Virus record (IMG/VR): IMGVR_UViG_3300047359_000830
Span: 1 to 57,046 of that record
DNA: 57,046 nt
Source of the DNA: a virus
Reading direction: 5' to 3' (one strand)
Positions 12,012 to 15,814 of this stretch are shown piece by piece. Positions within the stretch are counted from its first letter, which is position 1, and each line of letters opens with the position of its first letter. Under the pieces are notes generated by a model that was not told where the DNA came from, made no database searches, and worked only from the letters and a program-made list of their open reading frames with translations. A program made the position numbers and the translations under genes.

Positions 12012-12029
12012 TGGGTATAAATATACCCA
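12012..12029 (+). promoter_or_regulatory. Late promoter TATAAATA inside a perfect palindrome
   Basis: TATAAATA at 12016-12023 is the centre of TGGGTAT-AAAT-ATACCCA, a 7-bp perfect inverted repeat. It lies about 140 nt before gp32 and upstream of the sigma70-type promoter, suggesting both early and late supply of gp32. Confidence 0.6.
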
Positions 12030-12058: not shown

Positions 12059-12087
12059 TTGACAGGACACTATGTAGGTCTTATAAT
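12059..12087 (+). promoter_or_regulatory. Consensus sigma70 promoter for gp32 (TTGACA-N17-TATAAT)
   Basis: TTGACA 12059-12064 and TATAAT 12082-12087 match both hexamers exactly with the ideal 17-nt spacer. Expected +1 near 12094, at the 5' foot of the leader hairpin. This is the strongest host-type promoter visible in the window. Confidence 0.85.
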
Positions 12088-12164: not shown

Positions 12165-13064
12165 ATGTCAGCATCATTAGATAAGCTCAGAGCGGCCATG
12201 GAAACCGCATCACCAGCTCAAGGTGAGAAAAAATCCTACAATGACGATACTATGTGGAAACCAGAACTTGATAAATCAGGTAATGGTTATGCAGTAGTTC
12301 GTTTTTTACCAACTCCAGAAGGCGAAGAAATGCCGTGGGTTTCATATTGGGACCATGGTTTTCAAGGACCTGGTGGGTGGTATATTGAGAAGTCTTTAAC
12401 GACTCTTAATAAAAAAGACCCTGTGTCTGAATACAATACTACATTGTGGAATTCAGGTATCGAAGCAAATAAAGAACAGGCGAGAAAGCAGAAGCGTAGA
12501 CTTCACTATGTCTCAAATGTTTATGTTGTTTCAGACCCTAAAAATCCAGACAATGAAGGCAAAGTTTTCAAATACAGATTTGGAAAGAAAATCTTTGAAC
12601 AACTCAAAGAGGCAATCTCTCCAGCATTTGAAGATGAAAGTGCAATCAACCCATTTGATATGACAGAAGGTGCAAACTTTAAAATCAAAATCAGAAAAGT
12701 TGATGGTTACTGGAACTATGACAAATCAGAGTTCGATGCAACTTCACCATTAGGTGACGAAGCAATGATTAACTCTACATTTAGTTTAGTTCATTCTTTA
12801 AGCGAAGTAATCTCTCCAGATGAGTTCAAGTCTTATGACGAACTCAAAGAGAAACTTGATAGAGTCTTAGGCCTATCAGGTGCAGTATCAGGTAGCACGG
12901 CAGAAAGTATTGCAGAAGACCAGGAAGAAGTGCCATGGTCAAATGTTAATACTGAAAGTGTTGCAACTGAACCTGTAATCGCATCAGCAGAATCAACTTC
13001 CGCACAATCAAGTGAAGGTGACGACGCGATGGATTACTTCAAAAGATTAGCTGAAGACAGTTAA
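12165..13064 (+). CDS. 32: gp32 single-stranded DNA-binding protein
   Basis: 299 aa (T4 gp32 is 301). The OB-fold core is recognisable: GNGYAVVRFLPTPEGEEMPWV, KDPVSEYNTTLWNSG, the basic ARKQKRRLHYVSNVYVVSDP and FKYRFGKKIFEQL. The tail after about residue 235 is Glu/Ser/Ala-rich and acidic, ending DAMDYFKRLAEDS, the usual partner-binding tail. No Cys is present, so the T4 zinc site is absent, as in cyanophage versions. AATAGGAGAATACA precedes ATG 12165. Confidence 0.95.
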   Translation: MSASLDKLRAAMETASPAQGEKKSYNDDTMWKPELDKSGNGYAVVRFLPTPEGEEMPWVSYWDHGFQGPGGWYIEKSLTTLNKKDPVSEYNTTLWNSGIEANKEQARKQKRRLHYVSNVYVVSDPKNPDNEGKVFKYRFGKKIFEQLKEAISPAFEDESAINPFDMTEGANFKIKIRKVDGYWNYDKSEFDATSPLGDEAMINSTFSLVHSLSEVISPDEFKSYDELKEKLDRVLGLSGAVSGSTAESIAEDQEEVPWSNVNTESVATEPVIASAESTSAQSSEGDDAMDYFKRLAEDS

Positions 13065-13075
13065 TCTTTGAGTTG

Positions 13076-13240
13076 GGTGCCCTTGTGTTTATATTATGTA
13101 TAAGTGATGCAAGAACAAGGGCAGACTTGGACCGTGGACAAAAATGGGGGCACCAAGTAAGGGAAAGATTATTGGCGAATAGCGGAATAATCGGTATAGA
13201 GCGGGATGCTGTAAAGCGTGGGGCAACTATACATTTTTTT
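13076..13240 (+). ncRNA. Candidate structured RNA / bS21 leader with T-run
   Basis: This 190-nt gene-free gap is visibly GC-richer than its surroundings. Four consecutive helices form in order: TGCCCTTGT 13078-13086 / ACAAGGGCA 13115-13123 (9 bp); ACTTGG 13125-13130 / CCAAGT 13153-13158; GATTATT 13167-13173 / AATAATC 13186-13192; GTATAG 13194-13199 / CTATAC 13227-13232 enclosing ATGCT-GTAA-AGCGT (13206-13219, GNRA loop). Seven Ts follow (13234-13240), then the bS21 ribosome-binding site. GGTGCCC 13076-13082 can pair instead with GGGCACC 13148-13154, giving two exclusive folds. An open frame here starts only at TTG and is judged spurious. Confidence 0.7.
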
Positions 13241-13254
13241 AAAACAGGAGAATT

Positions 13255-13488
13255 ATGCCAGAAGTGAGACCGAAAATCAACCCTAAGAATCGACAAGAAG
13301 AACCTTTCGATAGAATGCTTAGGAGATTTAAGAAACAATGTGAGAGGGCAGGTATAGTTCAAGAGGTTCGTGATAGACAATATCATGAGAAACCTAACGA
13401 TACAAAGAATCAAAGAAATCAAGACATCAAAAGACGAAAGAAACTTGATGCAAAAAGGGCTTCACAAAAAGGTTATAGACCAAGATAA
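13255..13488 (+). CDS. rpsU: Phage-encoded ribosomal protein bS21
   Basis: 77 aa. The core [19 protein letters not shown] and the following [15 protein letters not shown] align with bacterial bS21 (xEPFDxALRRFKRxCEKAGx...EVRRRxxYEKP), and the Lys/Arg-rich tail [17 protein letters not shown] is also typical. bS21 binds the 30S subunit near the 16S 3' end and influences mRNA selection. Phage S21 genes are known, including in a SAR11 phage. AACAGGAG lies 5 nt before ATG 13255, directly after the T-run of the structured RNA. Confidence 0.92.
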
Positions 13489-13694
13489 TGAATCAGTGGC
13501 ATGGGGGAAAAGGTTCTAAGAGAAGGAACTCTAACGAAGATGCCTATGCTGACGGTTGGGAACTTATATTTGGTAAAAAGAAACCAGAAATAAAGGTTCG
13601 AAAAGAAACACCTTCACACGCATCTACTCAGATGCATAAAGACAAAACAAAAATCATTCCTCGTAAAGAGAAACATTACGATAAGTTGGATTAA
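13488..13694 (+). CDS. Small basic conserved phage protein
   Basis: 68 aa, start coupled to the bS21 stop (TAATG). WHGGKGSKRRNSNEDAYADG and the tail QMHKDKTKIIPRKEKH are signatures I recall from small proteins of T4-type marine phages; function unknown. The strong basic character suggests nucleic-acid contact. Its stop overlaps, tail to tail, the stop of the minus-strand tape-measure gene; no terminator lies between them. Confidence 0.7.
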   Translation: MNQWHGGKGSKRRNSNEDAYADGWELIFGKKKPEIKVRKETPSHASTQMHKDKTKIIPRKEKHYDKLD

Positions 13695-15814
13695 ACTCCT
13701 GCCATGATATCGTCATAGTATCTATCATTCTCGTCTCTAGCAGTATCCTTACGAACTAAAACATTAGTAGAAGAGTTATTATTATTCTGTTGAACAACTT
13801 GTGCAACTGCCTCGGCCGCTGCATTTACATCTGGTCTTGCATCTTGTGTTGCTTGTTCTATTTCTTGACCTCTTCTCTTTGCCATTTCATCTTCTGCAAT
13901 CTCCATGACTAATTCTGCATCAGAACCATCTTCTAAGGTTGTCTCACCTTTTGCAAGAGTTGTTTTTGCTTCGTTATAATCTGCAATGATTGATTTTCTT
14001 GCCTCTAGTTCTTTCTCAATTAGTTCTTTAGATTCATCGGCAATATCATCATCAGCAAGAATTGCATTCAATTGATTATTAGGTGCAGTGATAATCATGT
14101 CTTTGTTTACTTGACTCTTACCAAACATTCCAACCTTCTCATACAATCCAGATTCTTCAGCACTCATCAGACTTTGCTCTTGTTTTGCTTCTTTGGACTT
14201 ATCTCTTTCTTTTAATGGTTCTTCACCTGATTCCATTTCGGCTTCATCGTCTTTACCAAATATCATATTGACTGCCCAATCTGGTAACAGTTTCTTTGCC
14301 ATGTCTTTTATAAACTTACCAATGTCAATGCCGAAGACATCCTTAAAGAAGTTGCCGATTGCTTTAAATGGTGCCTTTATTAAATCCCAAATACCACCAA
14401 ACATATCTTTAAGACCACCGAACATCATGTCGAAGTCTCCTGTAAATAGACCTTTCCAGAAGTCAAAGAATCCACCAAAGATTGTAAAGATAGAGTCTTT
14501 AATATCTATGAAGTAACCTATAACTGTATCGACCGCTGCCTTGAATCCTTCAGACTCTTCATATAGTTTCATACCTGCCATGACTAAACCAACAATCGCT
14601 ATTCCTGCAAGTATGTACGGTGCAGCGGCAAGTAATAGACCACCTGCAGTCATAGCTAAACCACTTATGAATGCAGCGGCACCAGCAGCGAATGCGGTTA
14701 GTGTTGCCATTAAGGCAGTTCCCGCAGCTGCGAGTCCTGTACCTATTGCCGTGAAAGCACCTCGAAGAGCAGTCATGCCTCCTGAAAGCATAGACCCCAA
14801 AGATTTTTTAAGACTTCCTGCAGCTTTTCCAATCCCCTTTCCTGCATCTTGCATTACTCTTCCAAGATTACCCATAATCTTATCACCTAAGACTCCGTCT
14901 CCACCGAAAACTTTACCTAGTGCATTTAACTTTTTAGTTGCACCATCGAATGTTCCCATAATATCAAAACCAACAAGTTCTTTAAAACCATCAGAGAAAT
15001 TTGAAAGTCCTTGCATCTGTTCTTCTTTAGATTTATCAATAGATGCTTTAAGTTCTTTTGAAGCATTCTCTTGGTGTTGTGCAATTGAAGACAATGATTT
15101 TTCATGTTCGGTGACAAAGAAAGTTTTATCTGCCATTTCTTTAGACAATAGGTCTTGTTGACCCTTATACTTTTCTTGTAATATTTTGTCTTGGTTTGCT
15201 TCTTCGTCTGCAAGAGCATTTTTAGCCTGTTCTATTTTTGCCTGGAGTTTAAAGTCTTGTGCTTGATTCTCATTTTCTGCGGCCAACTTTTCTGCATCTT
15301 TTACTGCTTTCATAGCATCGGCAAGACCTGAAGATTTCTCGTCTGCCATTAGTTTATCTAAGTCAGTAATCTTTTGTTGAGTTTGTGATTGTGATATTAA
15401 AGCGTCTTTTCTGAGTTTAGTAAATTTCTCTTCTTCTCTTTCAAGACCTTGCATTCTTGCAACTTGTCCACCAAATACATCTGATAGAATGTCTTGTTGT
15501 TCTTCAGTTAGATTACTCCAACCCTTTTCTGCCATCTCAGTAGCAGCAGACATACCTTTAATAAGGTCTCTATTAAGAACGGCACCTTTAAATGTATCGG
15601 CAGACAACCCTTTAAACTCAGAAACAATTTTAGCTGCCTCTGGTCTTGTTTTAGCGAGACTAGAAATAACATTCTTAAATTCTTTAGTTGTTCCTACAGT
15701 AGACTCTTCAAGTTCTGAATTAAACTCTGCACGAATTTTTTTCTCTTCTTTTTGTGCCTGTTTGAGTTCGTCTAAAATCTGTTTACGAACCTTTTTTATC
15801 TCTTCGTCTGCCAT
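13691..15814 (-). CDS. Tape-measure-like tail protein
   Basis: 707 aa. About 280 residues of charged coiled coil (KKVRKQILDELKQAQKEEK...) precede a long Gly/Ala/Leu hydrophobic stretch (about 335-425, including LAAAGTALMATLTAFAAGAA and LLLAAAPYILAGIAIVGLVM), then repeated GGxxDxxxGLF-type segments and a polar tail. This layout is characteristic of myovirus tape-measure proteins; T4 gp29 is 590 aa. The sequence itself is too diverged to prove gp29 homology. It is last in the minus-strand operon after gp26, where a tape-measure gene is expected. Confidence 0.72.
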   Translation of the reverse strand: MADEEIKKVRKQILDELKQAQKEEKKIRAEFNSELEESTVGTTKEFKNVISSLAKTRPEAAKIVSEFKGLSADTFKGAVLNRDLIKGMSAATEMAEKGWSNLTEEQQDILSDVFGGQVARMQGLEREEEKFTKLRKDALISQSQTQQKITDLDKLMADEKSSGLADAMKAVKDAEKLAAENENQAQDFKLQAKIEQAKNALADEEANQDKILQEKYKGQQDLLSKEMADKTFFVTEHEKSLSSIAQHQENASKELKASIDKSKEEQMQGLSNFSDGFKELVGFDIMGTFDGATKKLNALGKVFGGDGVLGDKIMGNLGRVMQDAGKGIGKAAGSLKKSLGSMLSGGMTALRGAFTAIGTGLAAAGTALMATLTAFAAGAAAFISGLAMTAGGLLLAAAPYILAGIAIVGLVMAGMKLYEESEGFKAAVDTVIGYFIDIKDSIFTIFGGFFDFWKGLFTGDFDMMFGGLKDMFGGIWDLIKAPFKAIGNFFKDVFGIDIGKFIKDMAKKLLPDWAVNMIFGKDDEAEMESGEEPLKERDKSKEAKQEQSLMSAEESGLYEKVGMFGKSQVNKDMIITAPNNQLNAILADDDIADESKELIEKELEARKSIIADYNEAKTTLAKGETTLEDGSDAELVMEIAEDEMAKRRGQEIEQATQDARPDVNAAAEAVAQVVQQNNNNSSTNVLVRKDTARDENDRYYDDIMAGV

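Follow-up and report, generated by a model that had tools for sequence, protein, structure and literature searches.

We describe a structured RNA encoded directly behind gp32, the gene of a single-strand DNA-binding protein, in IMG/VR record IMGVR_UViG_3300047359_000830. This record comprises 57,046 nt of virus DNA and is referred to as the window. The RNA occupies positions 13071 to 13240 on the + strand (the family spans 165-200 nt), and its helices P1 to P4 are strongly supported as RNA structure by covariation among homologues, by conserved unpaired bases and by a strand asymmetry of G-U pairs. In the loci compared, the RNA is fixed in the gp32 3′ region of two clades of marine T4-like phages: clade 1, to which the window belongs, and clade 2, in which the RNA is diverged. 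Judged from the sequence comparisons below, it is probably a small noncoding RNA that acts in trans; clade 2 would transcribe it from a late promoter belonging to the RNA itself, and in clade 1 it would be freed from the gp32 transcript.

Homologues were collected by searches with gp32, with bS21 (the phage ribosomal protein encoded downstream in the window) and with a DNA pattern of the RNA. This yielded 243 matches in loci on IMG/VR contigs, of which 106 were unique and 78 remained at 95% identity. Structure-blind alignments were made with MAFFT, and a further alignment was fitted by means of a covariance model. Significance was judged by a G-test with average product correction against a tree-based null of our own, modelled on R-scape, in which substitutions along a FastTree phylogeny were assigned to randomly drawn columns. 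The ten strongest covarying column pairs of the MAFFT alignments, for which no structure was used, all lay within predicted helices. In the structure-blind alignment A1, eight pairs were significant and all eight were in helices; the model-fitted alignment gave 17/17, a supplementary count as this alignment leans toward the structure. Compensatory changes in homologous gp32-bS21 regions, proposed with the original prediction as a check on its candidate structured RNA, were thus found.

The pairs themselves told the same. Two-sided change occurred in 27 of 39 pairs, with a covariation score of 0.471 (0.173 shuffled, at most 0.119 slid); two-sided changes numbered 475 vs 140, and 89.5% of cells were paired (73.5% shuffled, 34-44% slid). 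G-U cells outnumbered A-C cells by 325 to 58, and this excess identifies the + strand as the RNA. Several unpaired purine-rich segments were nearly invariant: GGGG in P2, GGGAAAG at the P2-P3 joint, GCGG in P3 and GGG/GGGG in P4. No significant pair outside the helices, and hence no pseudoknot, was detected in either alignment. In clade 2, a candidate pairing that would close the ends, between the 5′ GGG and the 3′ tail, was not significant. Pairing of the G-rich segments with the anti-Shine-Dalgarno region of 16S RNA came to 4-5 pairs by eye and was dropped.

The elements of the RNA in the window are as follows.

13071-13240, + strand: structured RNA, its ends inferred from conservation
13075-13077, + strand: G-tract before P1, GGG in 73/76 homologues
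13078-13122, + strand: P1 hairpin, 13078-13086 with 13114-13122, covarying over its full length
13125-13158, + strand: P2, 13125-13133 with 13149-13158 and one bulged base; apical G-tract 13146-13150, GGGG in 76/76 homologues
13159-13166, + strand: joining segment AAGGGAAA from P2 to P3, unpaired and nearly invariant, the GGG within it present in 75/76
13167-13192, + strand: P3 hairpin, 13167-13173 with 13186-13192, its loop with a conserved GCGG
13194-13232, + strand: P4, 13194-13199 with 13227-13232 and 13201-13202 with 13223-13224
13234-13240, + strand: run of seven T directly after P4, a possible termination site, variable among homologues

The four perfect helices (9, 6, 7 and 6 bp) that the original prediction had read are those in which the homologues covary. 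Helix 1 is UGCCCUUGU/ACAAGGGCA (9 bp, 13078-13086/13114-13122), helix 2 ACUUGG/CCAAGU (6 bp, 13125-13130/13153-13158), helix 3 GAUUAUU/AAUAAUC (7 bp, 13167-13173/13186-13192) and helix 4 GUAUAG/CUAUAC (6 bp, 13194-13199/13227-13232). Helix 4 does enclose the predicted GNRA-capped hairpin, AUGCU-GUAA-AGCGU, whose stem is 13207-13210/13215-13218; P4 also contains internal G-tracts at 13203-13205 and 13220-13223. The P2 loop varies in length and bears an additional hairpin in some homologues. The predicted fold of 13060-13260 had -55 kcal/mol compared with -43.5 for dinucleotide shuffles (z = -3.1; none of 200 as good). Taken singly, the P1, P3 and P4 hairpins gave z values of -4.1, -3.2 and -3.4, and P2 was unremarkable (-1.2). 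The described run of seven Ts followed by the bS21 ribosome-binding site is present. In homologues, the run has 2-8 T and many clade-2 members have no long T-run; a terminator scan called none at the P4/T-run of the window. The GC-rich island of the original prediction proved mild: the RNA region has 43% GC compared with roughly 35% for the window, and the end of gp32 is equally high. The apical loop of P1 has the core ATGTGTCC or TCGTGTC in most members of both clades, despite a freely varying stem (alignment A1 columns 28-45, A3 columns 55-62), and no partner for this core was found in the alignments.

The comparison of gene orders shows that the RNA follows gp32, not bS21. Context-free pattern scans gave 290 matches with gp32 upstream, counted where the upstream DNA sufficed; 12 matches without gp32 upstream also lacked the other features of the RNA and look like chance matches. 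The RNA was behind gp32 in 88/88 clade-1 loci (gp32 at least 69% identical to that of the window) and in 33/33 clade-2 loci (gp32 at least 75% identical to that of L053). Part of the clade-1 loci had been fetched by the RNA pattern, and those fetched by gp32 identity alone agree. RNA-bearing records searched whole (up to 151 kb) had a single copy. The phages HTVC008M, Mosig and Melnitz have bS21 (for HTVC008M see also PMC6375957), and whole-record model searches did not find the RNA in them. In HTVC008M and Mosig, gp32 is followed instead by a plain hairpin of terminator-like form.

A third group of loci (L064, L065, L066, L068, L078, L353, L356, L359 and L360) has a different conserved element just after gp32, GGTATACTAG...TGTGCAGTAAGTC...CGTAACACCACA...GACTA, usually followed by a strong terminator hairpin. 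Its predicted consensus fold, from eight sequences, has -46.6 kcal/mol, and the element had no Rfam match. A partly similar sequence follows gp32 in Melnitz (L278). The element is possibly another gp32 3′-region RNA.

Phages with a gp32 57-61% identical carry the diverged clade-2 RNA at the same position. Its order is GGG before P1, an extra hairpin, P2 with a GGGG loop, GGAAAG, P3 with a GCGG loop, P4 with GCGGG...GGGGC, and an end in ACA. Position, this architecture, weak model scores and two bridging members (L339 with 78 bits under model R1; L062 with 24 bits under R1 and 45 under R2) support its homology with the clade-1 RNA. In 37/37 clade-2 loci, gp32 and the RNA are separated by TATAAATA, a late promoter sequence of the T4 type, at most 60 nt after the gp32 stop; this count is from a selection without a promoter requirement, an earlier selection having required TATAAATA. 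The gene after the RNA was convergent in 32/33 callable cases, and bS21 is ~1.4 kb upstream of gp32. In L059, L061 and L062 the RNA is directly followed by a homologue of a 68-aa open reading frame (ORF) of the window, without bS21. These gene orders make the bS21 cassette a variable neighbour of the RNA, and a late promoter that has nothing but the RNA behind it points to the RNA as a product. The sequences strongly suggest that the clade-2 RNA is a separate transcript, started at the T4-type late promoter that follows the gp32 stop by a few bases.

The surroundings of the RNA in the window are those of a gp32-bS21 unit.

12016-12023, + strand: TATAAATA, a match to the T4-type late promoter, upstream of gp32
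12059-12087, + strand: sigma-70-type promoter TTGACA-17-TATAAT ahead of gp32, 12/12 consensus positions
12165-13064, + strand: gp32, single-strand DNA-binding protein (Pfam PF08804, E=1.8e-40; PHROG 224, E=1e-107)
13246-13250, + strand: AGGAG, bS21 ribosome-binding site as read in the sequence
13255-13488, + strand: phage ribosomal protein bS21, ATG at 13255 (Pfam PF01165, E=2.6e-13)
13488-13694, + strand: 68-aa ORF without Pfam or PHROG match

The transcript containing the RNA would stem from the sigma-70-type promoter at 12059-12087. Near ORF starts within the window, TATAAATA was seen 12 times compared with 6.5 expected. The 68-aa ORF is conserved beside bS21 or directly after the RNA. Convergent to the unit is the gene of a 707-aa protein (13691-15814, - strand), which lies near baseplate-type genes and had no PHROG match.

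In most clade-1 loci the gap between gp32 and bS21 is ~180-225 nt. In a second set, a DNA methyltransferase gene (PF01555) inserted downstream of the RNA and ahead of bS21 widens the gap to ~1060 nt, and the RNA stays beside gp32. The inserted gene (~295 aa) occurs in about a quarter of clade-1 loci (L004, L006, L011, L013, L014, L016, L019, L025, L042, L047 and others), and its start codon is 10-19 nt after P4, often without a recognizable Shine-Dalgarno sequence. By pattern, 8/77 loci have a sigma-70-like promoter between the RNA and bS21, and inspection by eye adds one or two; loci with that promoter have a slightly longer T-run behind P4 (5.8 vs 4.5). In L010, L034, L038, L040, L041, L049, L258 and L267 this promoter is mostly TAGACA or TTGACA, 18 nt, TATAAT, and its expected start is almost at the bS21 ATG, which suggests that the bS21 messenger RNA (mRNA) in those loci is leaderless or nearly so. 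In most clade-1 loci, P4 is followed straight by the next ribosome-binding site.

Could the region be something other than a structured RNA of its own function? ORFs of the window do span it on both strands, but a short protein-coding stretch, or an inverted repeat serving as a site in the DNA, is hardly credible in view of the covariation, the 325:58 ratio of G-U over A-C cells and four hairpins with strand-specific conserved loops. Frames and lengths are not conserved either: just 20/76 homologues had any sense frame open throughout, and lengths cover all three residues modulo 3, in keeping with the earlier statement that no credible protein is encoded. The original prediction had gone on to tie the RNA to bS21 as a possible attenuator, with GGTGCCC pairing alternatively with GGGCACC. 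A cis-acting leader of bS21 or of a methyltransferase-bS21 operon, be it an attenuator, a ribosomal-protein autoregulatory site or a riboswitch, would fit the clade-1 start codons of these genes, mostly 10-31 nt after P4, where P4 could affect ribosome access. However, the alternative pairing, which does exist in the window sequence, is not conserved (54.5% paired vs 57.0% in shuffles), is almost without two-sided change and does not covary; on these alignments it is a chance feature of the subclade to which the window belongs. In addition, clade-2 bS21 lies upstream of gp32 and the gene after the RNA is convergent, a separate promoter exists downstream of the RNA in some clade-1 loci, and HTVC008M, Mosig and Melnitz have bS21 but not the RNA. 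The attenuator and the tie to bS21 are thus unsupported, and a leader of any kind appears rather unlikely. Alternatively, the RNA may be a 3′ untranslated region (3′-UTR) element that ends or stabilizes the gp32 mRNA as terminator and exonuclease barrier, is perhaps bound by gp32 and has no role once separated. Its invariable place directly behind gp32, the plain intrinsic terminators at this place in the RNA-less relatives HTVC008M and Mosig, the seven T after P4 in the window and the post-transcriptional control of T4 gene 32 mRNA, which is cut near its stop (PMC3014915), all agree with such an element. But the clade-2 late promoter between gp32 and the RNA (37/37) would make RNA without gp32, the T-run after P4 is not conserved, and a terminator or barrier needs no invariant loops or joining segments. 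We consider the 3′-UTR element possible but not probable.

We therefore favour a trans-acting RNA of the gp32 3′ region. In clade 2 it would be made as its own unit from the late promoter after gp32. In clade 1 it would be carried on the gp32 transcript, most likely from the sigma-70 promoter, and be freed either where transcription terminates behind P4 or by a cut close to the gp32 stop. Cleavage of gene 32 mRNA by RNase E near the stop codon in T4 (PMC3014915) sets a precedent for freeing a 3′ fragment. The free RNA or its complex with protein may then act in trans during infection via the conserved G-rich loops. Several observations weigh against this proposal. The late promoter TATAAATA was found within 170 nt upstream of the clade-1 RNA in 0/102 cases, so that separate production in clade 1 is inferred; the next start codon in most clade-1 loci is 10-31 nt after P4, as it would be for a cis element; and the constant linkage to gp32 fits a 3′-UTR role too. 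The link between the clades is weak in model searches (R1 on clade 2, E 0.037 to 0.18; 4/5 sub-threshold R2 matches outside clade 2 and the L059/L061/L062 relatives fell at the clade-1 RNA), and clade 2 alone gave no individually significant covarying pair, at low power. A further reading has the invariant G-tracts of P2 and P4 dock, possibly as a G-quadruplex, and the core bind the ribosome or a protein of host or phage, as a late-expressed trans-acting RNA machine. This is unlikely, and the G-quadruplex is suggested solely by the conserved G-tracts. The phages in question also carry their own bS21. If true, T4-like phages would have in this docked G-tract machine their first well-supported family of structured RNAs that act in trans.

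Rfam 15 gave no match in the window at the gathering threshold. With permissive thresholds, three members hit just microRNA, small nucleolar RNA and CRISPR-repeat models, with E ~0.4 or more and far below gathering. The scan works, as the control elements in related loci, transfer RNA and the glutamine riboswitch (the latter in L278), were recovered. Phage contigs have been screened computationally for structured RNAs on a large scale, and such screens may include this element among thousands. By this comparison of three members, it is a new RNA family without an Rfam relative; the comparison covers Rfam, and the marine Ocean-VI motif (PMC2864571) has no Rfam accession. The proposed mechanism, a 3′-region small RNA, is of a known kind, and the novelty lies in the RNA family, absent from Rfam. 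Blastn searches with three members found no cultured phage with the RNA, and the scores of HTVC008M, Melnitz, Mosig and P-HM2, each searched whole with the model, stayed at chance level. Among bacterial genomes, one of 48 pattern matches was real (L375). It is on a 121-kb contig in a GTDB metagenome-assembled genome of Sphingobacteriales, in the order gp32-RNA-methyltransferase-bS21. Since this is the phage gene order, L375 is probably of phage origin and was binned together with bacterial contigs.

Small RNAs from bacterial 3′ regions include types with their own promoter and types processed from mRNA. MalH is an example of such a small RNA (PMC8081044). The RNA described here is similar in its location within an mRNA 3′ region, with an own promoter in clade 2 and probable derivation from the mRNA in clade 1. 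Unlike them, it is phage-borne, larger and more ornate, and its 3′ end in clade 2 is not terminator-like. The manA and wcaG motifs of T4-like cyanophages are likewise structured RNAs, known mostly from marine metagenomes and T4-like phages, but they are discussed as regulators of metabolic genes (PMC2864571), whereas this RNA is behind gp32; the manA Rfam model did not match it. The related marine myophage Melnitz, a Methylophilales phage, has a glutamine riboswitch and a two-piece transfer-messenger RNA (PMC9004378). These RNA elements belong to different families, and in L278 Rfam finds the riboswitch and nothing that matches this RNA.

In T4 itself, the pseudoknot and autoregulatory site of gene 32 is also a structured RNA tied to this gene, but its position is 5′ of gene 32 and gp32 binds to it, whereas the RNA described here lies 3′ (PMC3014915). 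By description, the latter also resembles RNAs C and D, small stable RNAs of unknown role in this T4-type phage (PMC3014915). According to the T4 review, no small trans-acting regulatory RNA or riboswitch had been functionally characterized in T4, and related genomes might suggest candidates (PMC3014915). The gp32-linked RNA is such a candidate: it is compact, has a secondary structure supported by covariation, is carried by two large marine groups at each gp32 locus that was examined and is preceded by a late promoter in one of them. The use of structured RNA late in T4-like infection has thereby become a directly testable question.
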